Below, in pieces: positions 2,443 through 27,696 of a stretch of DNA of 27,696 nucleotides (positions are counted from its first letter, which is position 1; the number at the start of each line of letters is the position of its first letter). A program made the position numbers and the translations under genes. Source of the DNA: a virus; the IMG/VR virus record IMGVR_UViG_3300042991_000142, positions 1 through 27,696 of that record; one strand, written 5' to 3'. The notes below the pieces were generated by a model. It worked only from the letters and a program-made list of their open reading frames with translations. It had not been told where the DNA came from and did no database searches.

Positions 2443-2705
2443 GACTTGCCAACAAGATGATCGCCATCGCACTTGCCGCGATGGTCGGCGCCGCCGAGCC
2501 GCCGCCCGACACCCGCGACGAGAAGGCGCTGGCAGAGCTGCGCCGAATCAGGCGCGAGCGCAAGGCGTGGCAGGAGAAGCACGCCGCCGAACTCAAGGCG
2601 GCAGAGGACGCCGCCGCCGCTCCGTACCGGGAAGCGAACCGCGCACGCCGCGCCAAGCACATCAGGCAGACCAACGCCGATGTCCGGCAGGCGGTGCGCG
2701 CATGA
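2439..2705 (+). CDS. exported or membrane-anchored charged helical protein
   Basis: An 88-residue protein. Residues 1-19 (MRLANKMIAIALAAMVGAA) look like a signal peptide or signal anchor. The rest is one highly charged helix rich in Arg, Lys, Glu and Ala. The ATG at 2439 overlaps the previous stop and has AGAGG 7 bases upstream. An N-terminal membrane anchor followed by a periplasmic helix is the shape of inner-membrane spanins, but nothing else supports that, so it is left unassigned. Confidence 0.6.
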   Translation: MRLANKMIAIALAAMVGAAEPPPDTRDEKALAELRRIRRERKAWQEKHAAELKAAEDAAAAPYREANRARRAKHIRQTNADVRQAVRA

Positions 2706-3040
2706 GCGCCGCCGCCGATCGCTTGTATGCTATCGTCCGCCAGCTCTCGGATGAGAACTACCGCTCGCCCGATCCGCCCGACGAGCAGGACATGATCGAC
2801 GCGGTGATCGCTTATGAGGCCGAGCGCAAGCTGACGGGCGAGGCTGGCAATGTGCCGTCGCCCCATGTCGCCAGGAGTCCGCTGCGCGATGATGCCTTCC
2901 GCCTGTCGCGCTTGCTGCTGATCGCGCTCGCTGATCTGACCGGCAGGAAGGCCGGGCGCCTGACGCCTGACCAGCTGCGATCCTTTCTCGATGATTGCGA
3001 TTCCGCCCTGGCGAAGCTCGGGCTGGAGCGTGCCAAGTGA
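2702..3040 (+). CDS. hypothetical protein
   Basis: A 112-residue protein starting MSAAADRLYAIVRQLSDENY, with an acidic N-terminal half and a helical C-terminal half (DAFRLSRLLLIALADLTG). No family recognised. The ATG at 2702 overlaps the previous stop by ATGA and its own stop overlaps the next start by GTGA. Base use matches the neighbours. Confidence 0.6.
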   Translation: MSAAADRLYAIVRQLSDENYRSPDPPDEQDMIDAVIAYEAERKLTGEAGNVPSPHVARSPLRDDAFRLSRLLLIALADLTGRKAGRLTPDQLRSFLDDCDSALAKLGLERAK

Positions 3041-3237
3041 ACGCCATTCACACATTGACCAATGACCCGATGGCGCTGCCGCCGGGGAAGGTCTGCAAGG
3101 ACTGCCATCACCTGCGCCGCTGCATGGGATTGCTGGGCATCTCGCCGGGCAATCGCACCTGCGACTTCTCGCCTTCGCGCTTCGTCCAATACGAGCCGGA
3201 AGCGATCACCCCGAACGGCAACAAGGTGAAGCCATGA
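3037..3237 (+). CDS. small zinc-binding protein with four cysteines (GTG start)
   Basis: A 66-residue protein read from GTG at 3037, chosen because it forms a GTGA overlap with the preceding stop and has GGAG 8 bases upstream. The centre contains VCKDCHHLRRC and a later NRTCDF, giving four cysteines that probably hold one zinc ion. Small proteins with this CxxC-x5-C-x12-C layout are frequent in phages; their role is unknown. Confidence 0.6.
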   Translation: MNAIHTLTNDPMALPPGKVCKDCHHLRRCMGLLGISPGNRTCDFSPSRFVQYEPEAITPNGNKVKP

Positions 3238-4499: not shown

Positions 4500-4967
4500 T
4501 CAAAGCTTGGGCGCTGGCGCGACCGCTGGCGGCGGATCGGCCATGCCGTTGATGACGAACTTGGCGAAGCGTTCCCCGCCCCAGGCGAGAGCGCCGCCAG
4601 CGATCAGCACAACCCACCACGCCGGGGCGGTCGCCTTCGCCTTGCGGCCCGTGGTCGGCTGCGGCGATGCGCGCTTCTCCAGCGCGGTCGTGCCGTGAAC
4701 CGCGCACCGCTCGCCCTGCGCGTCAACATCCTTCCGAAGCGTGCGGATCTGTTCGCTGCCGCTGGCGAGCCGCGACTTGATCTCGCTGATGTCATCCCGT
4801 AGCTCCTTGAATTCGGATCGGGATTCCTTGCTCTGCGCGTCGATCTTGTTGCTGATCGTTTCAGTCTGCTTGGCGATGTCGGAGCGTAGCCCCTCCACTT
4901 GGTCCATGAGGGCCACGATGATGCTCGTTTCCTGGGATGAATGTTTCGAACGATCGCCGGTAGCCAT
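4500..4967 (-). CDS. coiled-coil protein with C-terminal membrane segment (XhlA-like layout)
   Basis: A 155-residue protein from the ATG ending at 4967. Residues about 15-85 form a heptad-like coiled coil (DQVEGLRSDIAKQTETISNK, then EFKELRDDISEIKSRL). A Trp-flanked hydrophobic segment (WWVVLIAGGALAWGG) lies near residues 113-127. A coiled coil followed by one membrane span is the layout of XhlA-type lysis proteins, although those are shorter. It starts 2 bases after the preceding tail gene and precedes the lipoprotein gene. A holin or holin-partner role is an inference from shape and position only. Confidence 0.55.
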   Translation of the reverse strand: MATGDRSKHSSQETSIIVALMDQVEGLRSDIAKQTETISNKIDAQSKESRSEFKELRDDISEIKSRLASGSEQIRTLRKDVDAQGERCAVHGTTALEKRASPQPTTGRKAKATAPAWWVVLIAGGALAWGGERFAKFVINGMADPPPAVAPAPKL

Positions 4968-4969
4968 GA

Positions 4970-5659
4970 CTACACCGCGGCCTTGCTGCGGAAGCTGCGG
5001 CGATTGAAGGGGATACTGATGAATCCGCTTCCGCTTGCCATGCTTCCATTTACTCGGAGCTGGAGGTAGACCTCCGTTGAGGTCGCACGCGCCTTGGCCT
5101 GCAGATCGCTTGTCGAGATGATGTCGGGAAGGATCGTCTGCCAAGTGTTGGCCAGTGTTACGATCACATCGTCTTCATTGACCACCGTGCCTTCAACCTG
5201 ACGAGAACAGATCCGAACGCCGGTCGGCACCCCTCCAGAGTAGATCACATCAATCAAACTCAATTCCACGGCTACGATGAGGTACGCATGGTTTACGCCG
5301 CCGGTGTCGCTGAATGCTGTCTTTGATCCGACATGCGGAGCAACGCCGCCGAGCGGAACATCGTTGGTGAAGAACATTCCAGAGTGCGCCAGCTCGACCC
5401 ATTCCACATCGTCGGCTACAACGCTGACGATCATCTCGGCTGTTGTGATTGCGACACCGGCCCCCGTCGCCCAAAAAGTATCGTTCAATTCCGCTTGCTG
5501 TGTGCTGGGCGGGATCGTGAACACGGGCGCCGGATCGGCGGGGTCGATGCCGAGAACCGCCAGCACATTGTCCCGCAAGCGGAACATGAGGCTGGTCGTG
5601 ATCGGGCTTTCAGGATCAATCTCGTTATCTGCGATGACTGACCAAGTGGGAATTGGCAT
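4970..5659 (-). CDS. putative tail-tip / baseplate-associated protein
   Basis: A 229-residue, beta-rich protein beginning MPIPTWSVIADNEIDPESPI and continuing with TTSLMFRLRDNVLAVL, a beginning often seen in small tail proteins encoded after the hub in Gram-negative siphophages. It lies 3 bases downstream of the hub gene and 2 bases upstream of the coiled-coil gene. No enzyme motif is visible. It is likely a structural protein of the tail tip; the precise role is unknown. Confidence 0.5.
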   Translation of the reverse strand: MPIPTWSVIADNEIDPESPITTSLMFRLRDNVLAVLGIDPADPAPVFTIPPSTQQAELNDTFWATGAGVAITTAEMIVSVVADDVEWVELAHSGMFFTNDVPLGGVAPHVGSKTAFSDTGGVNHAYLIVAVELSLIDVIYSGGVPTGVRICSRQVEGTVVNEDDVIVTLANTWQTILPDIISTSDLQAKARATSTEVYLQLRVNGSMASGSGFISIPFNRRSFRSKAAV

Positions 5660-7501: not shown

Positions 7502-8272
7502 TCAATCCGTGATCGCCAAGATGGGGAGGTCCACCTTCATCTTCGGAGGCGGGCGATCATTCGTGGGCGCGTTGATGTCGGCCGCCGCGGCGAAGGCGAT
7601 CTCGGTCGGATGCCCGGTCGGGTCCCAGCGATACCAGAACGGGCGCTTGCCCGCGTGCTTGGCGAAGGGGTCCCAGGTGGCGCGCACCCAGGCCGGGTCG
7701 AGGTACTGGAGCGAGATCGTCGCCTGCTTCTGCGTGCGGCGCATGTTGCTGCCGAGGATCGAACCATTCACCGCCACCACATTCTCGCGCACGATGCCCT
7801 GGTAGAGCGTGAGAGGGTTCAGCCCCGACCATTGCCCGATCGGGAACAGGAGGCGCTTGCCGACCGACAGCAGGCGCCAAGAGCTGACCGCCGTGAAGGC
7901 GAAGCGGACCCAGCCGTTGGCAGGCACGGTCACGCTGGCGAAGTCGTACCAAGTGATCGTCCCGTCCGTGGCGACGGAGATGGTTCCGATGTTGGTATAG
8001 GTCACATCATCGGCCGACCACGCCAAGGTGAGCGTCGAGGCGCCGACGCCGCCCGATGGCGCCCAGGCCACGGCGGTGTCGATGATCTCCTGCGCCGTGC
8101 ATTGCACCTTGAGGTAGGTCGTTCCTGCCGAGGTTGTGAAGATCGAGAAGTCGCGCCAGTCCACGGCATTGACGGCAGCGAAGCCATCGGGCGGCGTGCC
8201 GCTGTACGCGAGCGATGCCCGGTAGCGGTACATGATCGAGTCCCATAGGACTTGTGCGGCTACCATGGTCAC
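7502..8272 (-). CDS. distal tail protein-like
   Basis: A 256-residue protein read from GTG (codon 8272-8270), which forms a GTGA overlap with the tape measure stop; an ATG two codons later is an alternative. The N-terminal half is a beta-sandwich-like region (LTLAWSADDVTYTNIGTISV), perhaps a carbohydrate-binding-type fold. The C-terminal half (NMRRTQKQATISLQYLDPAW and RPFWYRWDPTGHPTE) resembles distal tail proteins that form the ring joining tube and hub. Position right after the tape measure supports this. Confidence 0.6.
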   Translation of the reverse strand: MTMVAAQVLWDSIMYRYRASLAYSGTPPDGFAAVNAVDWRDFSIFTTSAGTTYLKVQCTAQEIIDTAVAWAPSGGVGASTLTLAWSADDVTYTNIGTISVATDGTITWYDFASVTVPANGWVRFAFTAVSSWRLLSVGKRLLFPIGQWSGLNPLTLYQGIVRENVVAVNGSILGSNMRRTQKQATISLQYLDPAWVRATWDPFAKHAGKRPFWYRWDPTGHPTEIAFAAAADINAPTNDRPPPKMKVDLPILAITD

Positions 8273-10527
8273 TTGCCCACCTGCGCTTTCAGACTCATGT
8301 TGTCGCCCACCTGCTCGTTGATCGCTCCGATCAGTCCGCGCACCTGTGAGCCAGAGAAGCTGTCGCCGTAGAGGGTGACATTCACATTCCGCTGCTCGGC
8401 GCTGGCGGCTTGCTGCTTGGCGACATCGGCGCCCGAGCTGGTCGCGCCACCGCCGCCGACCCCGCCGCCGATCGTCCCGCCGGTCGGCTGCGCTGCCATG
8501 AGCTGCTGGGCGCGGACCAAGCCTGCCAGAACAGCGGTCGCGGCGAACGCGCCGCCGACAACCGGACCGCCGATCTCGGCGCCGAAGGCATAGGAGCTGG
8601 CAGCGGATCGGATTGTGTCGATCACATTCTGCGCCATCGCCGCAACCTTGCCGATCATGAACAGCGTCTTGTTTTTCGACTGCATCAGCGAGGCCAGGTT
8701 ATTCAGCACGCCGCCGATCGCCGCCATCTTCCCCATGGCGCCGGACTCCCACAGCATCACCTGTGCGTCCACGGCCTTGCGTTCGTCAAGTTCGCGCTGG
8801 GCGTTGAATTCATCTTGCCGCGCCGACTGCATGGCCTGGTTATCAACCTGCATGAAGTCGAGTTCGTCCTGCGCGTCCTGCGTGGACTTGAGAACGCGGC
8901 CGAAATGCTCGGCAAGCATCTGCCCGCGCCGGTCGTAGTATTCCGCCTCGGTCCCCTCTGACTCGGCGCGGAAGGCGGCCGTTATTACCTCGCGCTCTTT
9001 CAACCCTTCCTCCGTCGCCTTCGCTGCTGCCTGGTTGAAAGCGATGATGCTGGCCGCGGCGCTGGCGAGCGTGTCGGCAAACGGGTTGCCGCCCTTCATG
9101 CTGGCGATCTTGTACGCCACATCATCGAACGCCTGCACGGCTTCGTCGCGGAACCGCTGCGCGTTGGCAACAAGGTTCTCCATTCCAGTCGATAGCTCGG
9201 TCGGCTTCGTCAGGTCGGCGCGTGCGCCCTCAAGAGCGGACACCGATGCATCGAGGTCATCCCTTGCGCTCTTGAGCAATTCAGCGGACCCGCTGCGAAG
9301 CTGCACGGCGCCGACGATCAACGACCCGCCGGCGTCGGCCAGCTTGCTCCCGGCTTCGATCATTCCTTTCACACCGGAGCGCGACATGGCGAGGCCCATG
9401 TCCTGCATCTGCCGACCGAACGCGATGCCTATTCCGGAAAGGATGTCGATCACTTGGTCGCTGATCCAGCGCCAGGCGAAGACAAGCCCCTCCTTCGTTG
9501 CGTTGAACGATGCGCCGATCCATGCCCATGTCTTGCCGGCCTTGTCTCCAATCCACTTGATCGCGTAAATGATATTGTCTGCCGTCTTCATAAATGCGAC
9601 AGATAGCTCGCCAACAACAACCTTCGCGCCTTCCCACATAAGTTCCAGCCCGGCCCAAACGGTGCGGATGACGCCGATGGAAACAACGATGGCCTTGGCT
9701 ACACCCTTGAACACGGCGTCGAAATCCTCGGTGTTGCCGATCCATTCATCTATTGCCGTGGCAATCCAGTTGAACACTGGAGCAAGGGCGATGCTGATTC
9801 GATTGGACAGCGATTCAAACGCGCCGGCCATCTTTTCAATTGCGCCCTTCGCCGTGTCGAGCTTTCCGAAATCAACTGCCGACATGGTGCGGCCGAGGCG
9901 TTCGCCCTCGGTCCCCATATCCTTGATCCCCTGCGCGCCGAGCCTGACCGTACCGGCAATCTCCTTGCTGTTCTTGCCGAACACCGACAGCATCAGGTCC
10001 ATTTTCTGGCCCTGATTCTCAACGCTGTTCATGCCATCGGCCAGCTTGCCGAACGCTTCCTCGGGCTTGAGGCCGGCGAGGTCGCGGAGAGACAGCCCCA
10101 TCATGCGGAGCTTGGCGTTGGCTTCCTCGCCGCCGGCCGCAGCATCGCCCAAAAACTTTTCCATTTTCATCAGCGCGGCGTTCATGCCTTCCGCTGATCC
10201 CATGTTCAACTTGGCGACATAGTGCAGCTTGGACAATTCATCAACGGCGATGCCTAGCGCCGCGCTCATCTTGCCAAGCGCCTCGTTACGCTCGAACGCC
10301 GACACGATCGCGGCGAAGCCGGCGAAGGCCGTTGCCGCGGCAGCGATCGGCGCAACGACACGGAGCGCCGCGCTTCCCACATTGTTGAGGCCGACCCGCA
10401 GCGGCTCCATCTTCTTTCCGATTTCGCCGGCGAACTTCTTGGCGTTCGCCGTAACCTGCGTGAACGCTTTATTCAGGCCCGACAGGTCCCCGATGATCGG
10501 AACGACTAGCGAAGGAAGATCGGTCAT
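8269..10527 (-). CDS. tail tape measure protein
   Basis: The start is the ATG ending at 10527 (MTDLPSLVVPIIGDLSGLNK), which forms ATGA with the stop of the frameshifted chaperone extension; the longer frame upstream is a shadow. The 752-residue product is mostly helical with several hydrophobic stretches (around AAATAFAGFAAIVSAF and AIVVSIGVIRTVWAGLELMW), a coiled-coil-like middle and a Gly-rich segment before the C-terminus, as in tape measure proteins that set tail length and are ejected with the DNA. At about 0.15 nm per residue the tail would be near 110 nm; this is only the usual ruler estimate. Confidence 0.85.
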   Translation of the reverse strand: MTDLPSLVVPIIGDLSGLNKAFTQVTANAKKFAGEIGKKMEPLRVGLNNVGSAALRVVAPIAAAATAFAGFAAIVSAFERNEALGKMSAALGIAVDELSKLHYVAKLNMGSAEGMNAALMKMEKFLGDAAAGGEEANAKLRMMGLSLRDLAGLKPEEAFGKLADGMNSVENQGQKMDLMLSVFGKNSKEIAGTVRLGAQGIKDMGTEGERLGRTMSAVDFGKLDTAKGAIEKMAGAFESLSNRISIALAPVFNWIATAIDEWIGNTEDFDAVFKGVAKAIVVSIGVIRTVWAGLELMWEGAKVVVGELSVAFMKTADNIIYAIKWIGDKAGKTWAWIGASFNATKEGLVFAWRWISDQVIDILSGIGIAFGRQMQDMGLAMSRSGVKGMIEAGSKLADAGGSLIVGAVQLRSGSAELLKSARDDLDASVSALEGARADLTKPTELSTGMENLVANAQRFRDEAVQAFDDVAYKIASMKGGNPFADTLASAAASIIAFNQAAAKATEEGLKEREVITAAFRAESEGTEAEYYDRRGQMLAEHFGRVLKSTQDAQDELDFMQVDNQAMQSARQDEFNAQRELDERKAVDAQVMLWESGAMGKMAAIGGVLNNLASLMQSKNKTLFMIGKVAAMAQNVIDTIRSAASSYAFGAEIGGPVVGGAFAATAVLAGLVRAQQLMAAQPTGGTIGGGVGGGGATSSGADVAKQQAASAEQRNVNVTLYGDSFSGSQVRGLIGAINEQVGDNMSLKAQVGK

Positions 10528-11172: not shown

Positions 11173-11751
11173 TCAGGGCGCTGGCGTGTAGACCACAGCG
11201 CCGGCGCTCGAAAGCGACAGGCTGTACTGTTCCGCGCCGTTATACTCGCCGTTGCGCTCGCAGCTTCCAACGAGGAAGTCCCCGTCGAAGAAATCGCCGC
11301 GCCCGCTGATGATCTTGAAGGTGACGATAGCGCCGCCGGTCACATCGGCCATGATGTCGGCCAACACATCGGCGTTCGAGAAGATGCCGGCGGCGGTCAT
11401 CTCCATGGAGCGGATGCCGACTGCGAGCAACTGACGCCAGGGAACATCGCCCTTGTCGGTGACATCCACCTGTTCGTTGTTGATGGTCAGGCCGGTGGAG
11501 CGCATGCCGGCGATGGTGACATGGCTGGTCGTGGCGGTGACGCCGACGAAGTTCCAGACAACGGTGCCATCGGTCTGCGGCGAGGTCGTGCCGGTCGGGC
11601 CGGTCGCGCCGCTGGTGCCTTCCGTCTTGCAGCGGTAGGTATTCAGGCCGGCGGTCACATACTGGCCGACGCTGTAGGCGGTGAGCGTGACCCAGGCGGT
11701 TGCCGTGATCTTGCGCTTGATGAGAAGGTCTTTGCCTCCGTACTTGGACAT
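11173..11751 (-). CDS. major tail tube protein with an inserted carbohydrate-binding-like module
   Basis: A 192-residue protein with AAGGAG 7 bases before the ATG, a sign of high expression. Residues 86-185 (STGLTINNEQVDVTDKGDVP to ERNGEYNGAEQYSLSLSSAG) match TP901-1-type major tail proteins, which polymerise into the tail tube. Residues about 20-71 (VTLTAYSVGQYVTAGLNTY, then GTSGATGPTGT and DGTVVWNF) form a separate module resembling small carbohydrate-binding domains found on phage virion proteins. The module lies near the N-terminus and would be displayed on the tube surface. A second copy of the tube domain occurs at 14431-16044. Confidence 0.8.
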   Translation of the reverse strand: MSKYGGKDLLIKRKITATAWVTLTAYSVGQYVTAGLNTYRCKTEGTSGATGPTGTTSPQTDGTVVWNFVGVTATTSHVTIAGMRSTGLTINNEQVDVTDKGDVPWRQLLAVGIRSMEMTAAGIFSNADVLADIMADVTGGAIVTFKIISGRGDFFDGDFLVGSCERNGEYNGAEQYSLSLSSAGAVVYTPAP

Positions 11752-12178: not shown

Positions 12179-12708
12179 TTGGATAACCCTTCCGCGACTG
12201 CGCGCTTGATGTCCTTGTCGATTTCGTCCACCGCCTCGGCCAGGCTCGGGCGCAGGAACGGCCGCTCCTGAATGGCGACCCGGCGCGAGCGCCCGGCGCG
12301 GCGCGTGCCGAACTCAAGCGCGGCGGCGTACTTGGTGTTCGCCGTCACCTTCGCAGTCCACACGCCGTTGCTCTCGGTCGCGTTGATCACATTGATCTTT
12401 CGCGCCAGGTTGCCGGTTTCATTGGCCGGCGGCTCGCCTGGCGCCGAGGCAACATGCACCTTCGCCGCGGCCTTCCGTTGCTGCGTCTTGTTGCCCATCA
12501 TATGATTCACGGTGTAGTTCATCACATCGGCGTTCTTGCCGTAGACGCGGCCTGACTTCGGGCCGTTCATAATGCGCTTTCGCGCCCGCGACTGAACCAA
12601 CAGGGCGCCGCGTGTGATCGCCTTCGCAACGCCATTGCTTATAGCCTTCTGCTTGGCAGAGATGGCGGCGGCGAGCTGCATCACACCACGGACGGGGCCG
12701 ACGATCAT
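12175..12708 (-). CDS. HK97 gp10-like tail/neck protein
   Basis: A 177-residue basic protein. The helical N-terminal half (AISNGVAKAITRGALLVQSR) and the C-terminal motif ALEFGT followed by ERPFLRPSL are the signature of the HK97 gp10 family, which helps join the head and the tail. The ATG ending at 12708 forms ATGA with the stop of the adaptor gene. A basic linker from about residue 45 to 95 is a little longer than usual. Confidence 0.75.
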   Translation of the reverse strand: MIVGPVRGVMQLAAAISAKQKAISNGVAKAITRGALLVQSRARKRIMNGPKSGRVYGKNADVMNYTVNHMMGNKTQQRKAAAKVHVASAPGEPPANETGNLARKINVINATESNGVWTAKVTANTKYAAALEFGTRRAGRSRRVAIQERPFLRPSLAEAVDEIDKDIKRAVAEGLSK

Positions 12709-13058
12709 TGCTCCACCCCGCTCTCGGCAATGATCACCAGAAACTTGTTCCGCAGCTCAATGTTGTTGAGAGCGCGGATGTTGAACAGCGTCCCGCCGTA
12801 GGAGAGGCGATCGGTCTGCACGATGTCGGTGCGCCACCAAGTCGAGAACGCGAACCGCTGGAAGGTGCGGACGCGCCCGGTCGAGCCGTCGCCATACTGC
12901 TCGGTCCCCTGCTCGTTGGTGATCTGCGCGTAGAAGGTCGCCACATTCGACCACACGACATCGAAGCCGCCCGAGCCGTCCGGTGTGTTGACCGGGCGCT
13001 GGACGGTGACGAGGAAGCGGAACTCCCCGGCGGTGATGTCGGCGGTCTTGATCTTCAC
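12705..13058 (-). CDS. head-tail adaptor / head closure protein (GTG start)
   Basis: A 117-residue protein read from GTG (13058-13056), in a GTGA overlap with the connector stop. The longer frame upstream of this codon is a shadow of the connector gene. The sequence FRFLVTVQRPVNTPDGSGG, then ATFYAQITNEQGTEQYGDGS and the ending RLSYGGTLFNIRALNNIELR, is the standard pattern of the head-tail joining family (SPP1 gp16 / HK97 gp7-like), a small beta barrel that closes the head after packaging. Confidence 0.8.
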   Translation of the reverse strand: MKIKTADITAGEFRFLVTVQRPVNTPDGSGGFDVVWSNVATFYAQITNEQGTEQYGDGSTGRVRTFQRFAFSTWWRTDIVQTDRLSYGGTLFNIRALNNIELRNKFLVIIAESGVEQ

Positions 13059-13948
13059 AGGATGGACACCCGAAGGACGCGATACGGATCGAGCAGAGCG
13101 CGCACCGCTGGGAAGCCCAGGATGTCGGGCTGCTGGTCGGCGTTGTCGCCGCGGTTCGACCACAGCGCGGCCGAAATCAGCAGGACCGCATGCTTGAGCG
13201 AGGCCGGGACGGACAGGCTGTCGCTGACGAACTTCCAGACGGCCGTGCCATCGGTGATGGTGGCGCCGGTCCCGCTCGGCCCGCCCGATGCCGCCGAGGT
13301 TCCTGCCGTGGTGCATTGGTAGGACAGCCCGCCGTTGCTCACCTGGGCGCCAAGCCCGTAGGAGGTCGCTGGCAGCCATGCCGTCCAGCCGTTGCGATAG
13401 CCCAGCGAGTAGGCGATCCTGAGTGAATGGGCCACCTGCAGATCGACCGGCCACACCGTTCCGCGCTGGAGGACGATGCGCGCTGGCATGTCCCGGTCGG
13501 CGTTGTCCACGATGTATTGGCTCGGGTCGAACACGACCTCCACGCCGTTGTTGGTGATGAAGTGGAACGAGTCGACCGAGGCCACGGGCGTCCCCATCAA
13601 TTCGAACCAGCGGAACATTCCGATGTTGGCGTAGCGGACGGGGATCTGCGCCGTGCCTGCACCGTAGAGGGTATATTCGTTTCCCGTGCCTGGGAGGAAG
13701 TCCATCCACATGATGACCGACTGCGGCAGGAGGCGACGATTCGTGTATCGCTGCACCGCGTCGATCGCGCCCGGCAGGATCACATCGGTCAGGTATTCGT
13801 CGGCGTTGCTGTCGGTGATCCGCAGGTGAGCCTTGAGCGTGGCGAGCGTGACAACATCACCGACCGGGCCTGCCACTTCCTGCAGGCGCTTGAAGACGGG
13901 GCGCGGGACTGTCCAGCCGCCGAGCGGAACGCTGATGTTGTTGATCAT
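13055..13948 (-). CDS. head-tail connector (gp6-like) with an inserted carbohydrate-binding-like module
   Basis: A 297-residue protein. Residues 30-185 (VTLATLKAHLRITDSNADEY to HSLRIAYSLGYR) and 246-297 (LSVPASLKHAVLLISAALW to the end) together form an HK97 gp6-like connector, which binds under the portal. Between them, residues 189-243 (WLPATSYGLGAQVSNGGLSY, GTSAASGGPSGTG, ITDGTAVWKFV) form an intact small module related to the one in the tail tube protein. Without it the protein would be about 240 residues. The module replaces a surface loop, so it would project from the neck. Sugar binding is inferred from family resemblance only. Confidence 0.8.
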   Translation of the reverse strand: MINNISVPLGGWTVPRPVFKRLQEVAGPVGDVVTLATLKAHLRITDSNADEYLTDVILPGAIDAVQRYTNRRLLPQSVIMWMDFLPGTGNEYTLYGAGTAQIPVRYANIGMFRWFELMGTPVASVDSFHFITNNGVEVVFDPSQYIVDNADRDMPARIVLQRGTVWPVDLQVAHSLRIAYSLGYRNGWTAWLPATSYGLGAQVSNGGLSYQCTTAGTSAASGGPSGTGATITDGTAVWKFVSDSLSVPASLKHAVLLISAALWSNRGDNADQQPDILGFPAVRALLDPYRVLRVSIL

Positions 13949-14230: not shown

Positions 14231-14434
14231 TCAAACCGGGTCCGATGGAATCGGCAGCTCGATGCCGTGTGCCTTGAGCGCCGCCAGCAGCTCGGCCTCG
14301 GTGTTGTAGGCGTCGAGCGAATCCTGGCCGGTCGTGATCTCCGAGCCTGCATCAGCGAAGCCGTAATGGTGCGCGCCGCCATCGCTGTGCGCGTGCCACC
14401 AGAGATCGGTCGGAGCGATGATGGTTCGGCTCAT
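14231..14434 (-). CDS. small hypothetical protein
   Basis: A 67-residue protein (MSRTIIAPTDLWWHAHSDGG), Trp/His-rich at the start and with a helix near the end (TEAELLAALKAHGIELP). The ATG overlaps the stop of the LRR protein in an ATGA, with GGAGG 6 bases upstream. The coupling suggests a partner or chaperone of the adhesin upstream, in the manner of small tail-fibre assembly proteins; this is inference. Confidence 0.55.
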   Translation of the reverse strand: MSRTIIAPTDLWWHAHSDGGAHHYGFADAGSEITTGQDSLDAYNTEAELLAALKAHGIELPIPSDPV

Positions 14435-16044
14435 ACCCCGCCTCCGTCAACGATCGTCCAGCCCTTGCCGCCGCCGCCAATCGAAGTTGTCAGATAGGTC
14501 CGCGCCGCGCCGGCCGTGGCTATGTCGTAATTGGCGGTCCCGCCGTGGAAGCTCACGCTGTTGTTTACGGCGCCAGCGGCGAGGTCGATCAGCAAGGCCG
14601 ACCATGCCGCCGTGGCGATCTTGGTCCCGTTGAAAGCGTTGGTCCCGACGCTCATCTTCCGCATGTTGAGCAGCGGGAAGGCGTAGCCGTTGAGGTCGAC
14701 GCAATTCCTCCAGGCCGAATTGAAATTGGTCACATCCTTGGTATCGAGCGCCGGGAACGAAGTCAGGCCAGAGCAGTTGAGCCAGCTCTGATCCATCGCC
14801 ACCAGCGTCGGCCCGAAGGTGATCAGGCCGAACGATACCAGACCGGTGCATCCCGACCATGTGACGATGAAGGTCGTTGCCTTGGGGAACGCCATCGCCG
14901 GGAACGAAGTCAGGCCGACGCAGTCGCGCCAAGCGGAATGGAAATTGGCGCCCTCTGCGAAATTGAGAAGCGGGAACGATGTCAGCGCGGCGCAGCCCTG
15001 CCACGCGCCCTGGAAGCTCGTCCCCTTGCTCACATCGAGAACGGGCATCGACTGCAAGACCGTGCAGCCGTTGCAGACGAAATTGAAGTTGGTTCCATTC
15101 GACCAGTTGAGCGTCGAAGGGATCGAGGTCAGGCTGCTGCAGGCGTTGAATAGGCTGTTGAACTCGACGCCGCCGCTCATGTCGAGATGCGGCACAGAGG
15201 TCAGGCCATAGCAACGGTAGAACATCGACCACCACGACCGCACGCCGCCGGTCTGCGCGTTGGCAGAATCGATCGCGGTGATCTGCATGTTGGCGCAACC
15301 GGCGAAGGCGTAGTAGAACGATTCCCACACCACGCCGCCCCACGCCTTGATCTCCAGCACCTTGAGCTTGTCGCCGCCATCGTTGAAGACCAAGGTCGGG
15401 AAGCCCGAGCCTGATGGGCCGGTCGGGGTGATCGTCACATCATAGACGCCCGCCACCGGATAGATGTGGAGGATGCTCGGGAAGCCCGCGCTGGCGTTGG
15501 TGATGCCTTCGACCGTACCATCGCCCCAATCCACCATGAAGTTGTACACGAAGGACGCGGACGGGCTGAGAGGCAGGATGAAGGTCGCGGCCCCAGGCGT
15601 CACCTGCTCGGTGTTGATCCGCAGGACGAAGGGGAGCGGGCCAGACGCGGCGGCGGTCGCAGACGAGAACGACAGCGAGAACATCTCGGCGCCGTTGTAT
15701 TCGCCGTTGCGCTCCAGCGTGGTCAGCAGATAGAATCCCTGGGCGATCACATCCCGCGGCTCGGTGATCACGCGGACCTCGACCAGCCCGCCATTCATCG
15801 CCGCGAGCATCAGGAAGCCGAACACGGACACCGGATCGGGATTGTCGCGCACCACGCCCGAGCAGACGATCTCGCCCGAGCGGATGCCGAACGCCGACAG
15901 CTCGCGCCATGGGACCACGCCCTTCTCGGTCGTGTCCACCTGCTCGTTGTTGATGGTGGCGCCGGACGATCGCTCGCCTGGCACATCGTACCAAGTCCCG
16001 GCTATCAGGACTTGAACCTTGAAGTCCCTGCCGGAACTCTCCAT
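14431..16044 (-). CDS. tail-tube-like domain fused to PKD-like domain and BspA-type leucine-rich repeats
   Basis: A 537-residue composite protein. Residues 5-132 are a paralogue of the tail tube protein: ATINNEQVDTTEKGVVPWRE and LERNGEYNGAEMFSLSFSSA align with TINNEQVDVTDKGDVPWRQ and ERNGEYNGAEQYSLSLSSA in the gene at 11173-11751, without the carbohydrate-binding-like insert. Residues 140-208 are PKD-like (VDWGDGTVEG, then YPVAGVYDVTITPTG). Residues about 246-475 hold roughly nine repeats of about 24 residues with a conserved Cys and LTS-P pattern (GCAALTSFPLL, DCVGLTSFPAM, NCSGLTSFPAL), like BspA/DUF285 leucine-rich repeats used for adhesion. The end (KGWTIVDGG) is also typical of such proteins. 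Probably a receptor-binding virion subunit. Confidence 0.8.
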   Translation of the reverse strand: MESSGRDFKVQVLIAGTWYDVPGERSSGATINNEQVDTTEKGVVPWRELSAFGIRSGEIVCSGVVRDNPDPVSVFGFLMLAAMNGGLVEVRVITEPRDVIAQGFYLLTTLERNGEYNGAEMFSLSFSSATAAASGPLPFVLRINTEQVTPGAATFILPLSPSASFVYNFMVDWGDGTVEGITNASAGFPSILHIYPVAGVYDVTITPTGPSGSGFPTLVFNDGGDKLKVLEIKAWGGVVWESFYYAFAGCANMQITAIDSANAQTGGVRSWWSMFYRCYGLTSVPHLDMSGGVEFNSLFNACSSLTSIPSTLNWSNGTNFNFVCNGCTVLQSMPVLDVSKGTSFQGAWQGCAALTSFPLLNFAEGANFHSAWRDCVGLTSFPAMAFPKATTFIVTWSGCTGLVSFGLITFGPTLVAMDQSWLNCSGLTSFPALDTKDVTNFNSAWRNCVDLNGYAFPLLNMRKMSVGTNAFNGTKIATAAWSALLIDLAAGAVNNSVSFHGGTANYDIATAGAARTYLTTSIGGGGKGWTIVDGGGV

Positions 16045-16047
16045 GAC

Positions 16048-16224
16048 CTACTCGGCGGATTCTACCGGGGCGGCGAAGTCGCTTCCGTCATAGGTCCAGC
16101 CGATCGCAACATGCGGCTTGTCGGTCACATCAACCAGCGTGCCGGCCGGCTTCCATGCGCTCTTGCCGTCCCACATGGCGACATTTTCGACCGTGCCGTT
16201 CTTGATGATGGCAATGCGCTTCAT
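16048..16224 (-). CDS. small conserved fibre-associated protein
   Basis: A 58-residue protein (MKRIAIIKNGTVENVAMWDG, then VDVTDKPHVAIGWTYDGSDF). The pattern is common in small genes just after phage fibre genes, and the C-terminal WTYDG resembles the start of tail-fibre assembly proteins. AGGGG of its ribosome-binding site overlaps the fibre stop codon, so translation is probably coupled. It may help fold or attach the fibre; this is inferred. Confidence 0.65.
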   Translation of the reverse strand: MKRIAIIKNGTVENVAMWDGKSAWKPAGTLVDVTDKPHVAIGWTYDGSDFAAPVESAE

Positions 16225-16232
16225 GGTGTCCC

Positions 16233-17942
16233 CTAGATCGTTACCGCGACGATGATGCCAAGCCCGCCGTCGCCGCCGGCGCCGGAATTGAAACCGTTGG
16301 TCGAGCCGGCGCCGCCGCCGCCGCCGCCGCCGTAGCGCCCGCCGCGCTTGCCGGGGTTGCCGGCGCCAGCGGTCGAGGAACCGCCGCCGCCGCCGCCGGA
16401 GCCGAGTGGTTCGTTCTCGACGCAATCCGCGCCATCGGTGTTCTGCGCGGCGTTGGCGCCATCGGTCCCGAGGGCCGCGCCGCCGGAGCCACCGGGCTTG
16501 GTCGTATCGACGGCCGTGATCGGCGCACCGCCGCCGCCGCCGGCGCCAGCATCAGCGGACAATCCGCCGACCTGGCCTGCGGTAAACGTGCTGCTGATGC
16601 CGCCGTATCCGCCGCCCTGCACGCCGAGGGGGCTGGAACCGGCGCTGGTCGTTCCGCCGCCGCCTGCCGCGCCAGGACCGACGCGCACATGGCTCCCGAA
16701 GGTCGAGACACCGGCCTGCGACCCGGCGCTGCCGTTGTTGTCATCGCTGGTCTGCGCCGGCCCGCCTGTTCCAGCGGCGCCGATCGTGACGGTTTCGGTT
16801 GCGCCAAGGGATTGCGTCTGGATCACCCGCGCAGCACGGCCGCCGCCGGACCCGCCGACACCGCCGCCGCGAACGGTCACCGTGGCACCGCGCCGGCCCG
16901 AGCCGCCGCCGGCGCCGGGGCCAATGGCTGTTACCGTGGTCATGGCGCCGGCCGCTGGCTTTGTCCAGGTTCCGCTACTGGTGAAGACCTGAACATCGGC
17001 GCGGTTGCCGGCGGCAATCCACTTGCTCGCTCCGTCGCTGGTCAGGAGCATGGACCCGAAGGCCGTGGCGATCTTTTCCTCCACGGCCGTCCCGCCGTTG
17101 AGGGTGTCGCTTCCGTCGCCAACGACCTTGATCTGGACGGTCTGCGAGGCAGCGCCGCTGGCGTCCACGACACAGACGCGGCGACCGGCCGGAACGGTAT
17201 TGGCGGCCGGGAGCGTCAGCGTGCGGGTTGCCGTGATGGCGAGGACAAGCACGGTCGCGCTGGTCGCGACGATCGCGGCGTCCGCATCGCTGACGGCCTG
17301 CACATTATCGACCCCGAGGTTGACGCGGGCGGTCGCCGCGCTCGCCAGGTCGGAGAGGTTGCTGGCCCGCTGGGCGCTGGCGGCGATGGCCGCGACCTGT
17401 GCCGCAGCTGCAGCGCCGACCGGATCTGACGCGGCGATGGCTGCGGCCTGCGCTGCGGCAGCCGAGCCGGCCGGGTCGCTGGCTGCCTCGGCTCCAGCCT
17501 GCGCGGCGTTGGCCTTCGCGGTCGCGTCGCCGGCGGCCGTGGCGATGGCTGCGTTGGCCTTCGCGGTAGCGTCGGCCGATGCGGTCGCCTCGGCTGCAGC
17601 CTGCGCGGCGTTGGCCTTCGCGGTCGCGTCAGAGGCGGCGGCGGCCTGCGCGCCAGCTGAGGACCCTGCGGCATCGAAGTCTGTGTCTTGGGCGGTTGCG
17701 GCCGTTCCTAGACCCAGCGCGGCGCGGGCGGCGTCGGCGTCGGTCAGGTCTAGGAGATTGTTGGCTTTCGCCAGCGAGTTGCCCTCAGCTGCGGCCTGCG
17801 CTGCGGCAGCCGAGCCGGCGGCGTCGAAGTCCTCGGCGGCCTGCACGGCGGCCGTTCCCAGCCCAAGGGCGGTACGCGCCGCCGACTGGTTGGCCGATGC
17901 CATGAAGGTATCAATTGCGGCGGAAACGGTCAGGTCAGCCAT
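16233..17942 (-). CDS. fibre protein: Ala-rich repeat shaft and Gly-rich tip
   Basis: A 569-residue protein with AGAGG 8 bases before the ATG. Residues 1-200 are Ala-rich repeats (TALGLGTAAVQAAEDFDAAG, DATAKANAAQAAAEA), likely a trimeric shaft. Residues 200-330 are beta-rich, with NLSDLASAATARVNLG and a SDGASKWIAAGN strand. From FTSSGTWTKPAAGAMTT to the end the protein is extremely Gly-rich (GPGAGGGSGRRG, RYGGGGGGGAG), like Gly-rich host-recognition tips of phage adhesins. Close to the capsid genes and to a spike-base-like gene, it may be a head spike fibre rather than a tail fibre. The tip should be the part under host selection. Confidence 0.8.
   Translation of the reverse strand: MADLTVSAAIDTFMASANQSAARTALGLGTAAVQAAEDFDAAGSAAAAQAAAEGNSLAKANNLLDLTDADAARAALGLGTAATAQDTDFDAAGSSAGAQAAAASDATAKANAAQAAAEATASADATAKANAAIATAAGDATAKANAAQAGAEAASDPAGSAAAAQAAAIAASDPVGAAAAAQVAAIAASAQRASNLSDLASAATARVNLGVDNVQAVSDADAAIVATSATVLVLAITATRTLTLPAANTVPAGRRVCVVDASGAASQTVQIKVVGDGSDTLNGGTAVEEKIATAFGSMLLTSDGASKWIAAGNRADVQVFTSSGTWTKPAAGAMTTVTAIGPGAGGGSGRRGATVTVRGGGVGGSGGGRAARVIQTQSLGATETVTIGAAGTGGPAQTSDDNNGSAGSQAGVSTFGSHVRVGPGAAGGGGTTSAGSSPLGVQGGGYGGISSTFTAGQVGGLSADAGAGGGGGAPITAVDTTKPGGSGGAALGTDGANAAQNTDGADCVENEPLGSGGGGGGSSTAGAGNPGKRGGRYGGGGGGGAGSTNGFNSGAGGDGGLGIIVAVTI
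17440..17819. repeat. direct repeats in the fibre shaft
   Basis: Two pairs of perfect 32-base direct repeats lie in the shaft coding region: 17497-17528 with 17599-17630 (encoding the DATAKANAAQA unit, with a shorter imperfect copy at 17551-17573), and 17440-17471 with 17788-17819 (encoding an AGSAAAAQAAA unit). Unequal recombination between them could lengthen or shorten the shaft. Confidence 0.75.
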
Positions 17943-18375: not shown

Positions 18376-18747
18376 TTACGCGATGCCGAGGATGGTCTTC
18401 TGCGCTGCCAGATCGGCAGCCTGCAGGAGCGCCAGCCCGGCGGCGGTGGCGTTGAGTCCAGCGACCGCAGCGGCGCCAGCGCCGACCGGATCACTGGCAG
18501 CGATCGCTGCGGCCTGGGCGGCGGCGGCGGCGCCAGCGGCTTCGGCGCCGAGGTTGGCGAGAGCGGTGGCCGGGGTGGCGACATCGGACAGGTTGTTGGC
18601 AGCCAGCAACGCGCCTCCTTCCGCCTCCGTCTTCACGGCCTGCATCGAGACGCGGTAGGGAACGCCATTGCGGAACACTACGACCACATCGGTCGGCAGC
18701 AGATCAACGGGCGAAGGAAGCCCGGCAAGTTGAGATATATCGTCCAT
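18376..18747 (-). CDS. Ala-rich spike/fibre-associated protein sharing repeats with the fibre
   Basis: A 123-residue protein. The first 45 residues (MDDISQLAGLPSPVDLLPTD then VVVVFRNGVPYRVSM) are a common N-terminal unit of phage fibre-like proteins. The rest is Ala-rich and contains NLSDVATPATALANLGA and AAAIAASDPVGA, both also present in the fibre at 16233-17942. It probably joins the same structure. GGAGAG precedes the ATG, directly behind a large hairpin. Confidence 0.6.
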   Translation of the reverse strand: MDDISQLAGLPSPVDLLPTDVVVVFRNGVPYRVSMQAVKTEAEGGALLAANNLSDVATPATALANLGAEAAGAAAAAQAAAIAASDPVGAGAAAVAGLNATAAGLALLQAADLAAQKTILGIA

Positions 18748-19316: not shown

Positions 19317-20660
19317 TCAGGTCGTGGCGAACTTGACCAGCTTGGCCGCTTCCCAGTTCAGCACCTTGCCGCCCACGCGCTTCGTGGTGTAGAACAGCAC
19401 GAAGGGCTTGCTGGTGTAGGGGTCGCGCAGGACGCGGATGCCGATGCGATCCACGATCTGGTAAAACTCCTTCCAGTTGGCGATGGCGATGGCGTACTTG
19501 TTGGTCGAGCCGCTGCCGATCACCGGCATGTCGTTGAACTCGGCCACCGGGAAGTTCAACAGGGTCGAGGGCTGACCAAGCTGGGTGGACGGCTCCCAGA
19601 TATACCGCCCGAAGTTGTCGCGCAGCTTGCGGCAGGCGCCAACCGTGGTGCGGTGCATGGCCCACGCCACCCCGGGGGTGTCGCGGTACTGCGTCTTGAG
19701 CGCGTACACGGCATCCATCAGCGGGTTCATCACGGCACCGTCGCCGGCGGCGGCAGGCGCGAGCGGGAAGCCATCGGCCACGCCGGTCGGGATGTACCCG
19801 ATTTTCTGGTCAGCGATGTAGCTGTCGTAGCTGCCGCTGCCGCCGTTGGCGTCGGAGCGGGTGGCCTCGGTCAAGAACCCCTTGGGCTTGCCGTTGCCGT
19901 CACCGACAACGAAGGCGTTGTTTTCGGTACGGGCGAACTTGTCCGCGAGCTTCGCGGCAAGCCACGCCTCGGGGTCCCAGGCGGCGTCATCAAGGAGCTT
20001 CTGCGTCGCGGCGGGCTGGGCGTACAGTTCGTGGGTCGGGATGCGCCACATGCCGATCTTCGGATTGGCGGTGTTCGACCGGGCGCCCTGTTCGGCAACC
20101 CATGCGGCGGCGGCCTGGTCAGCGTCCATCGGGCCTTCGAGCGCGTCGGTGCTGATAGTCTGCACATTGGCGTACTGGCGGATGGGCGAAGTCTCGAAAA
20201 TGCGCTTGATGATGCGGCCGGACAGGTCGGCGTGGACCATGAATCCGCCCTGCGTGTCATCGCTGACGGCCAGCGCCTTGCACTCGGGGTGCGCTTCGAT
20301 GTAGGCGTCTTTCAGGGCGCTGTCGTTGTCGAGAACGCCCATGATCGCATCGGAGAGGGAGGCGCGGGTGTCGCCGTTGGCGCCCTTGCTCATCCAGGCG
20401 CGGAACGCCTTACGAAGCACCTTCTCGCCCGGCTCCTTGTTGTGTTCGCTGCCGCCGACAGCCGACCGCTTGATGGCGGTTTCGATCTTGTCGAGTTGGG
20501 CGGTCTTGGCATCGATGGCCTTGTTGATTTCGGCCAGCTTGGTTTCGATGTCGGCCACGGACTTGCCGTCAGCCTTCGCCTTGAGTGCTTCGGTATGGGT
20601 CTTCTTGAAAAGATCCCAATCGGCCTTGAGGCCGTCGGCGAGTTCTTTGATTTCAGACAT
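19317..20660 (-). CDS. major capsid protein, HK97 fold, with N-terminal delta domain
   Basis: A 447-residue protein. Residues 1-110 are a charged coiled coil (MSEIKELADGLKADWDLFKK, KLAEINKAIDAKTAQLDKIE), the delta domain that acts as a built-in scaffold and is removed by the prohead protease. From about 130 the HK97 fold follows: DDTQGGFMVHADLSGRII, then RIFETSPIRQYANVQTISTD, QKLLDDAAWDPEAWLAAKLA, FVVGDGNGKPKGFL, AWAMHRTTVGACRKLRDNFG and YAIAIANWKEFYQIVDRIGI. The protease is encoded 35 bases upstream, as usual. There is no clear ribosome-binding site: the bases before ATG are pyrimidine-rich, odd for such an abundant protein. Confidence 0.9.
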   Translation of the reverse strand: MSEIKELADGLKADWDLFKKTHTEALKAKADGKSVADIETKLAEINKAIDAKTAQLDKIETAIKRSAVGGSEHNKEPGEKVLRKAFRAWMSKGANGDTRASLSDAIMGVLDNDSALKDAYIEAHPECKALAVSDDTQGGFMVHADLSGRIIKRIFETSPIRQYANVQTISTDALEGPMDADQAAAAWVAEQGARSNTANPKIGMWRIPTHELYAQPAATQKLLDDAAWDPEAWLAAKLADKFARTENNAFVVGDGNGKPKGFLTEATRSDANGGSGSYDSYIADQKIGYIPTGVADGFPLAPAAAGDGAVMNPLMDAVYALKTQYRDTPGVAWAMHRTTVGACRKLRDNFGRYIWEPSTQLGQPSTLLNFPVAEFNDMPVIGSGSTNKYAIAIANWKEFYQIVDRIGIRVLRDPYTSKPFVLFYTTKRVGGKVLNWEAAKLVKFATT

Positions 20661-26705: not shown

Positions 26706-27696
26706 CTACTCTAAGCCGCCGGTTCCGACCGTCATATTGTTTTCCTTGGCGAACTTCGTCCAGCGCCGCCGGACAACATCGCAAAAGCGCGGCGAGATTT
26801 CCATCGTGCGGCAGACCCGGCCGGACGCTGCCGCGGCAATGAGGGTGGACCCGCTGCCGGCGAACGGCTCGACAACAATCCCGCCTTTCGGCAGGCTGGA
26901 AAGCATGCACCGCTTCATCATTTCCACCGGCTTGGGCGTGGCGTGGCCGTGGCGTTCGTCGCCGGTCACGCGCTCGAACTCCCACACATCGCGCATGATG
27001 TCATGCGCGTTGTCGAAGTAGGCGCGGGCGCCCTGAATCTCGGAAAGCGGCCCGCCCTTCACGGTGTCCCACTCGCGCTTGAGGTCGCGCCACGGCCGCT
27101 CGAAGTGGCCCGGGTACGCCTTCGCCATCGCCTGGTAATGCTTCTCTGGCATCAGCGTGTATTGCGAGCGGGTGAACCAATGCGAGAACATCGCGCACCC
27201 GCAGACCGTCTTTATGTCGGCCGGGCCGATCCCCGCGGCGTCCGCTTGAGCCTGGAAATATCGGCGGGTCGGTTCCCATGTCTCGGGGAAATCGTCGCTG
27301 TTGATGTTGCCCAGGAACTGGTTGCCGATCTGAATGAACAGACACCGCTCCGAGGCTTCCGGGTACTGCGTCAGGCCGGGCGACTTCATGCCGGGGACCG
27401 CTTTCTTGTCCCATACGATTTCGTTCCGCAGCGCCATGACTTCGGAGGCGGCGAGGCCACCTTGATACCAGAGGCGCCAGAGGTCCGGCGCGTTGCCCCA
27501 TATGTAGGCACTCGCGTTGTCGTGGACGAACGGCCGCAAGACCTTCCACCATTTCATCTGGAAGGCGTCAAGGTTCTCCCGGTAAACATTGTCGCCCTCC
27601 ACGCCGTCCGATTCCTTGCCCATGCCGTATGGCGGGTCGGCGTGAATCAGCGCGGCCTTGTCCGATCCCATGAGCGCGAACCAATCCTCGGCGCTG
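26706..27696 (-). CDS. DNA (adenine or cytosine-N4) methyltransferase, 5' end cut by window
   Basis: The frame is still open at the right edge: upstream of the first in-window ATG (27671) it reads SAEDWFAL, so the true start lies outside. The catalytic motif IV is ADPPYGMG and the SAM-binding motif I, VVEPFAGSGSTLIAA, lies near the C-terminus. Motif IV before motif I is the beta-class order of N6-adenine or N4-cytosine methyltransferases. The region between (about 220 residues) would include the target recognition part. No restriction enzyme gene is next to it, so it is probably an orphan that protects phage DNA from host restriction. It ends 4 bases before terS. Confidence 0.88.
   Translation of the reverse strand, partial: SAEDWFALMGSDKAALIHADPPYGMGKESDGVEGDNVYRENLDAFQMKWWKVLRPFVHDNASAYIWGNAPDLWRLWYQGGLAASEVMALRNEIVWDKKAVPGMKSPGLTQYPEASERCLFIQIGNQFLGNINSDDFPETWEPTRRYFQAQADAAGIGPADIKTVCGCAMFSHWFTRSQYTLMPEKHYQAMAKAYPGHFERPWRDLKREWDTVKGGPLSEIQGARAYFDNAHDIMRDVWEFERVTGDERHGHATPKPVEMMKRCMLSSLPKGGIVVEPFAGSGSTLIAAAASGRVCRTMEISPRFCDVVRRRWTKFAKENNMTVGTGGLE

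Follow-up and report, generated by a model that had tools for sequence, protein, structure and literature searches.

Why should a virus keep a second tail tube gene among its fibre genes, and what would the long C-terminal arm fused to it be doing on a tail? These questions are raised by a 27,696-base IMG/VR virus record (hereafter the window, meaning the whole stretch of DNA that was analysed). Its structural genes lie on the minus strand in the order methyltransferase, terminase, portal, head morphogenesis, protease, capsid and fibre cassette, followed by connector, head closure, gp10-like, terminator, TTP1 (the main tail tube protein), tail assembly protein, tape measure and distal genes. 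The second tube gene, TTP2, sits in the fibre cassette between the capsid and connector genes. We suggest, with a probability of roughly two in three, that its product is a minor subunit of the tube which holds interchangeable adhesive modules on the outer side of the tail, where they would be displayed. The genes on which the argument draws are given below in minus-strand order.

19317..20660, minus strand: major capsid protein, the upstream limit of the cassette (Phage_capsid, E 7.8e-74)
18376..18747, minus strand: 123-residue fibre-cassette protein (open reading frame; its start resembles L003:259-492 by eye)
16233..17942, minus strand: glycine-rich tail fibre-like protein (PHROG 8859, E 6.7e-11; PHROG 754 ‘minor tail protein’, E 2.2e-8)
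16048..16224, minus strand: 58-residue protein between fibre and TTP2 (PHROG 14370, E 6.8e-15, unknown function)
14431..16044, minus strand: TTP2, 537 residues, a second tail tube protein with a PKD-like domain and BspA-like repeats (open reading frame, Pfam and PHROG matches, paralogy to TTP1)
13055..13948, minus strand: head-tail connector with a CBM5/12-like module at residues 189-256 (Phage_connect_1, E 1.7e-9)
11173..11751, minus strand: TTP1, 192 residues, upstream of the tail assembly and tape measure genes (Phage_tail_2, E 2.7e-19)
11533..11700, minus strand: CBM5/12-like insert in TTP1, about residues 18-73 (CBM_5_12, 12.8 bits, sub-threshold)

Three observations concern the surrounding genes. 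The DNA methyltransferase gene (N6_N4_Mtase, 26706-27671, minus strand) stands at the contig end beside the terminase gene. The frame at 12705-13709 probably corresponds to a shorter gene for head closure (12705-13058, minus strand), with homologues matching its last 117 residues only. One CBM5/12-like module is found inside both TTP1 (11533-11700) and the connector (13181-13384, minus strand; 44% over 68 residues), and it also occurs in TTP1 of viral contigs L003 and L083 and in TTP2 of L022.

The initial annotation had described a tube paralogue at 14431-16044, placed in a spike cassette 2.7 kb from the main tube gene, with a PKD-like domain and about nine BspA-type repeats. The open frame lies exactly there, on the minus strand (the plus-strand translation contains stops), and 2,679 bases separate the two tube genes. 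The setting agrees as well: TTP2 lies in a fibre cassette, flanked by the gene for the glycine-rich fibre-like protein, and the stop of the intervening 58-residue gene falls 3 bases ahead of the TTP2 start. The protein divides into four parts.

15631..16044, minus strand: tube domain, residues 1-138 (Pfam, PHROG, BLASTP, PDB search, AF2 model)
15409..15549, minus strand: PKD-like core with a WGDG motif, residues 166-212 (sub-threshold PKD_4; the homologous gp93 passes the PKD cut-off)
14632..15312, minus strand: nine BspA-like repeats of about 24 residues each, residues 245-471 (cysteine-centred copies, periodicity, PDB 4fs7)
14434..14631, minus strand: C-terminal region ending in KGWTIVDGG, common to phage PKD-repeat proteins

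By sequence comparison and predicted fold, TTP2 is a paralogue of TTP1 in the tube family. The paralogy that had been proposed for its first 130 or so residues holds: TTP2 and TTP1 share 47% identity over 118 residues (BLASTP, E 2e-28), and TTP2 residues 4-131 match PHROG 1407 ‘major tail protein’ (E 1.1e-10). Residues 17-130 match Pfam Phage_tail_2 (PF06199; E 4.6e-6) with 27.2 bits, above the gathering score of 23.8 bits, which places TTP2 by sequence with the tail tube proteins of the TP901-1/GTA type. In PDB sequence searches, the tube domain alone retrieves Rcc01691, the tail tube protein of the Rhodobacter capsulatus GTA (RcGTA), at E 2e-7, and a family profile that includes TTP1 rows does so at E 9.8e-30. 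Structure prediction, which had been put forward as a check on this domain, gave an AF2 model with a mean pLDDT of about 80 over the tube part and with the beta-sandwich, helix and long loop of the tube fold. Its residues 3-136 align with the RcGTA tail tube (6toa_G) at VIA Z 14.7, with an rmsd of 3.5 over 121 residues; other matches include the monocin tube (Z 15.8), 80alpha (13.1) and lambda gpV (about 12). The TTP1 model finds its best match in RcGTA at Z 11.3, with lower confidence over its insert, in a comparison that sets each model against the same solved chains rather than model on model.

The arm is best understood through a relative. TTP2's PKD-like core scores 14 bits against a PKD_4 cut-off of 27, and its repeats score 14.4 bits against a DUF285 cut-off of 25. 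Gp93 of Synechococcus phage S-CBWM1, annotated ‘putative tail protein’, carries the same PKD and BspA-repeat cassette and aligns end to end with the TTP2 arm at 35% identity; it passes Pfam PKD (PF00801; 26.3 against 23.5) and DUF285 (26.7), though not LRR_5. Because gp93 passes these cut-offs and aligns end to end, we regard the arm as a known kind of phage module, here placed on a tube domain. The PKD fusion that had been proposed is thus carried by a PKD-like core identified through gp93, TTP2 itself scoring below the curated threshold. The repeats fared similarly. Nine copies are present, each centred on one cysteine (residues 250, 278, 302, 327, 351, 375, 399, 424 and 448) with a spacing of 24 to 28 residues; the top self-similarity lags are 73, 24 and 49, and the best score was reached by none of 1000 shuffles. 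The repeats also match PDB 4fs7 at E 3.5e-4. Since the DUF285 score of TTP2 stays below the curated cut-off, ‘BspA-like’ here denotes likeness and not membership of the BspA-type LRR families (LRR_5/DUF285).

The AF2 model was built on tube relatives only; it is weak over the PKD and C-terminal parts, and pLDDT falls to about 45 in the PKD-like core. An alignment mixing tube and repeat relatives was dropped, as the repeats landed on the tube region. Nor was a fold name for the arm drawn from VIA, where LRR ectodomains (thyrotropin receptor, Z 12.4) tie with beta-helix enzymes (Z 12.3). The PKD-repeat cassette occurs without a tube domain in other phages, and endings like that of TTP2 were seen by eye in L023, L024, L026 and L069. 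Exact peptide matching found no relatives of the repeat arm; an alignment-based search gave 8 loci, including S-CBWM1 itself and two look-alike pairs, and no tube domain was found at the start of these relatives among the open reading frames inspected by eye.

Is the second tube gene peculiar to the window? A tube profile was run on 18 and then 5 further viral contigs and on 10 of 23 listed public phage records. Two tube genes are present in 9 of the 23 further contigs (7/18 and 2/5), namely L003, L004, L005, L006, L008, L018, L022, L083 and L089, with split pieces of one tube gene (G004, G020, G021) counted once. Two more contigs, L078 and L088, have a TTP2-type gene between capsid and connector and end before the place of TTP1, which brings the contigs with TTP2-type genes to 12 including the window. 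A shorter contig, L084, encodes the same TTP1 protein as L083 and starts downstream of the cassette. These counts do not measure prevalence, because many contigs are fragments and all were found with tube queries. None of the 10 public phage records carries a second tube gene, and these records therefore offered no cultured example. Two scans of bacterial genome contigs (40 and 149 candidate stretches) gave patterns and no relatives that would name a host.

What varies most among these proteins is the part that follows the tube domain. Above the Pfam cut-offs, the L022 protein carries He_PIG and the L083 protein Fn3_assoc, CHB_HEX_C_1 and Laminin_G_3. Sub-threshold matches are to CBM5/12 and BNR in L022, an arabinofuranosidase-like domain (ArabFuran-like) in L005 and L018, Ig_2 in L006 and a Sortilin/BNR-like domain in L008; the 597-residue TTP2 of L078 has no Pfam match beyond the tube. 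Four other forms (L003, L004, L088, L089) are short, at 158-162 residues. Three of the four are followed directly by a gene that looks like a fibre or spike gene, within 4 bases or overlapping (at 979 in L003, 4484 in L004 and 8381 in L089); the short TTP2 of L088 has no such gene directly downstream. In L004 the partner combines YadA head repeats with a C-terminal domain of the K1-lyase type, both above cut-off, and the L003 and L089 partners were labelled fibre-like from sequence by eye, that of L003 having no match in Pfam or PHROG. Module exchange on TTP2-type tube domains is apparent in these sequences. The initial annotation had suggested a search for other tube-LRR fusions: other tube-adhesin fusions were found, none of them with BspA repeats.

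Other proteins may bear added domains as well. A one-gene version of the arrangement may be seen in a Desulfofustis phage (L030:11938-12651), whose single main tail protein has a C-terminal extension that looks Fn3- or Ig-like by eye. In L006, a module of about 110 residues recurs at 35-43% identity in a post-capsid protein, the connector and the main tube protein (2443-3171, 4521-5618 and 8098-8865), and a relative of it is found in a capsid-adjacent protein at L067:3513-4364. At the tail terminator position, L027:12858-13886 encodes a protein of 342 residues that includes a long additional C-terminal stretch, so that added domains may extend to neck proteins as well.

The trees indicate at least three origins of TTP2, setting aside gene conversion between copies within one phage. 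In a 43-row tree, nine TTP2 proteins form one group (support 92/75), eight of them at 97/86, beside TTP1 of the window's relatives. Support for this main clade went from 100/100 at six members to 92/75 at nine, after four TTP2 and two TTP1 rows were added; L088 TTP2 is a long branch of uncertain placement. The TTP2 proteins of L022 and L089 each pair as sister with the TTP1 from their own phage (99/93 and 99/94). A single ancient TTP2 lineage for all 12 was rejected (p-AU 1.2e-5; 0.034 for the first 8), and it is from the rejection of one clade of twelve that the count of origins follows. A clade of 10, without the L022 and L089 copies, was not rejected (p-AU 0.137), so that L008 TTP2, which has no firm place in the tree and lies near its own TTP1, may belong with the main clade.

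The two copies evolve at different rates and may be made in different amounts. TTP2 is more diverged than TTP1 in all 15 pairs of six phages; between the window and L003, for example, tube-domain identity is 91% for TTP1 and 42% for TTP2, with corresponding values of 72 and 39 for window and L004 and of 82% and 53% for L005 and L018. Predicted ribosome-binding pairing is weaker for TTP2 than for TTP1 in seven of the eight phages tested, in a comparison made without L083 and L089; the difference in L004 is a negligible 0.1 kcal/mol, and L008 is reversed, with the stronger site before TTP2. This weaker predicted pairing fits TTP2 as a minor component.

Our preferred explanation runs as follows. 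The main tube gene was duplicated to give TTP2, which would be a minor tail-tube subunit whose tube domain is expected to occupy positions in the hexameric tube; the duplication, the fold family, the fusion, the module exchange and the repeated origin are all read from the sequences. Incorporation into the tube, low copy number and binding to the host would then be expected of the protein. The PKD and BspA-repeat arm should project outside the tail, as such C-terminal domains do in other tube proteins, and would work as an additional adhesin that touches the surface of the host. In this scheme the tube domain is the mount, on which the same type of paralogue in related phages bears other modules, or else a short tail, in three of four cases with a spike or fibre gene directly downstream. 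Against this explanation stand the TTP1 residues that TTP2 lacks (see below), the reversed strength of the ribosome-binding sites in L008, the finding of no second tube gene among the 10 public records and the low confidence of the model over the PKD part.

Where along the tail such a subunit would sit is a more tentative matter; the initial annotation had offered display along the tail or a ring at the neck or tip, and both are still candidates. In siphophages, gene order often mirrors position. The TTP2 gene lies between the terminator and TTP1 genes in five phages (L005, L006, L018, L022, L089) and between capsid and connector in six (the window, L003, L004, L078, L083 and L088, the L003 contig starting past the capsid gene, inside a capsid-adjacent gene); in L008 it lies between the connector and a head closure gene named from position and sequence. 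Measured against 19 TTP1 references, with loops assigned from the alignment and not from coordinates, the six-member TTP2 clade keeps TTP1-common residues in 13/36 cells of the N-arm, 84/138 of the long loop and 63/108 of the last hairpin. The difference between N-arm and long loop gives a Fisher value of 0.009, for short segments whose cells are not independent. In the RcGTA tube as described in PMC7296036, the N-terminus faces the terminator and the long loop the next disc. Gene order and the conserved-residue pattern therefore lead us to lean, lightly, towards one or a few TTP2 rings at the head-proximal end, in the manner of a collar, rather than a spread along the tube; a mixed tube is nearly as likely.

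If TTP2 is a dedicated docking subunit that evolved at least three times, it might provide a general tail socket, probably at a collar near the head, for swapped adhesive modules that are either fused to it or present as a separate spike binding its short C-terminal tail. We hold this extension of the argument as a possibility with the odds somewhat against it. Were it true, host-contact modules could be swapped while the main tube and the baseplate stayed as they are.

The mixed tube deserves the same caution. TTP2 might be dispersed among TTP1 along the tube, like SPP1 gp17.1* or TpeX, so that the tail bears many adhesive arms; this is a sub-case of the preferred explanation that differs in position and copy number, and we consider it plausible without expecting it. 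SPP1 tubes mixed at 3:1 are a precedent in the account of PMC8718954, and TTP2 conserves the long loop and C-terminal hairpin to about the degree seen when TTP1 proteins are compared with one another. However, the main TTP2 clade has lost N-arm residues and several near-universal TTP1 residues: L9 goes from 18/19 in TTP1 to 0/6 in the clade, T20 from 18/19 to 1/6, and G98 and D99 from 16/19 to 0/6. Because these residues are absent, TTP2 may not copolymerise freely, and its far faster divergence than TTP1 in the same phage pairs also speaks against dispersal.

It is unlikely that TTP2 is instead a Dit-like adaptor holding fibres at the distal tip. The RcGTA distal tail protein does resemble the tube protein and has an insertion domain that may bind sugars, according to PMC7296036, and three of the four short TTP2 types adjoin fibre or spike genes. 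Yet in sequence TTP2 stands nearest to tube proteins, its top Foldseek and VIA matches are tube proteins, with SPP1 Dit far lower (E 1.3e-2), the window has separate distal genes, dist256 and hub611, and in none of the 12 contigs that carry such a gene does it lie among the distal tail genes. Similarly improbable is a non-structural TTP2 (a tube-like decoy, an assembly regulator or a decaying duplicate), which would suit the weak predicted ribosome-binding site and fast divergence, whereas all 12 TTP2-type genes have open frames, and at least three origins with repeated adhesive or spike association are more in keeping with selection for display than with decay.

The minor tube subunit with an outward arm, the reading that we favour, has counterparts among known systems. 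Gp93 of S-CBWM1 shares the arm and, unlike TTP2, has no tube domain, standing alone in the fibre region of a large cyanophage. Evolved Hcp proteins of type VI secretion join a tube subunit of related fold to another functional domain; their extensions are delivered toxins, whereas the TTP2 arm is predicted to be displayed. Of the solved structures, Rcc01691 lies nearest to the tube domain of TTP2 in sequence and ranks with the best matches to its predicted fold, but it is a 137-residue chain with no added domain. RcGTA is described with one tube protein in PMC7296036, and the ‘two major tail proteins’ of JBD30 are, in PMC11445458, two subunits of one protein.

Closer likenesses are found among decorated tubes. 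Outward C-terminal domains on tube proteins are common (lambda, T5 and YSD1, with SPP1 reaching the same end by frameshift; PMC8718954, PMC9022992). Lambda gpV and T5 pb6 have the tube fold and a C-terminal domain projecting outside (PMC8718954), and there, unlike here, every subunit of a single tube protein bears the domain. SPP1 makes gp17.1 and gp17.1* from one gene by frameshift, with the tube domain common to both (PMC8718954). As in SPP1, the window encodes two forms of tube protein, one with a C-terminal adhesive-type domain; the extended form here comes from a separate, diverged gene and its extension is much larger. TpeX of lactococcal 936 phages is an extended major tail protein that arises from the main tube gene through a frameshift, with a BppA-like CBM, and GFP-TpeX bound 4 host strains and none of 4 non-hosts (PMC6669499). 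Both TpeX and TTP2 extend a tube protein, with a host-binding module in the one and a predicted adhesive arm in the other, but the carrier here is a paralogue and its modules vary widely.

TTP2 is best read, then, as a separate-gene variant of the tube decorations known from lambda gpV, SPP1 gp17.1* and TpeX. It shares with the gp17.1*/TpeX type a C-terminal extension on a tube domain and departs from it in origin, being encoded not in or by frameshift from the main tube gene but in a separate, diverged gene 2.7 kb away, and the arms borne by such genes are very large and varied. Searches of the open-licence PMC literature listed no adhesin-bearing tube paralogue. Such a paralogue would raise the questions of how two diverged tube proteins would assemble in one tube and whether a paralogue can specify one tail end. 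In the decorated tubes described in the sources cited here, it is the main tube protein that bears the decoration. A distinct paralogue that evolved more than once and carries exchangeable adhesive modules would, if confirmed, give siphophages another route to vary their contact with the host.
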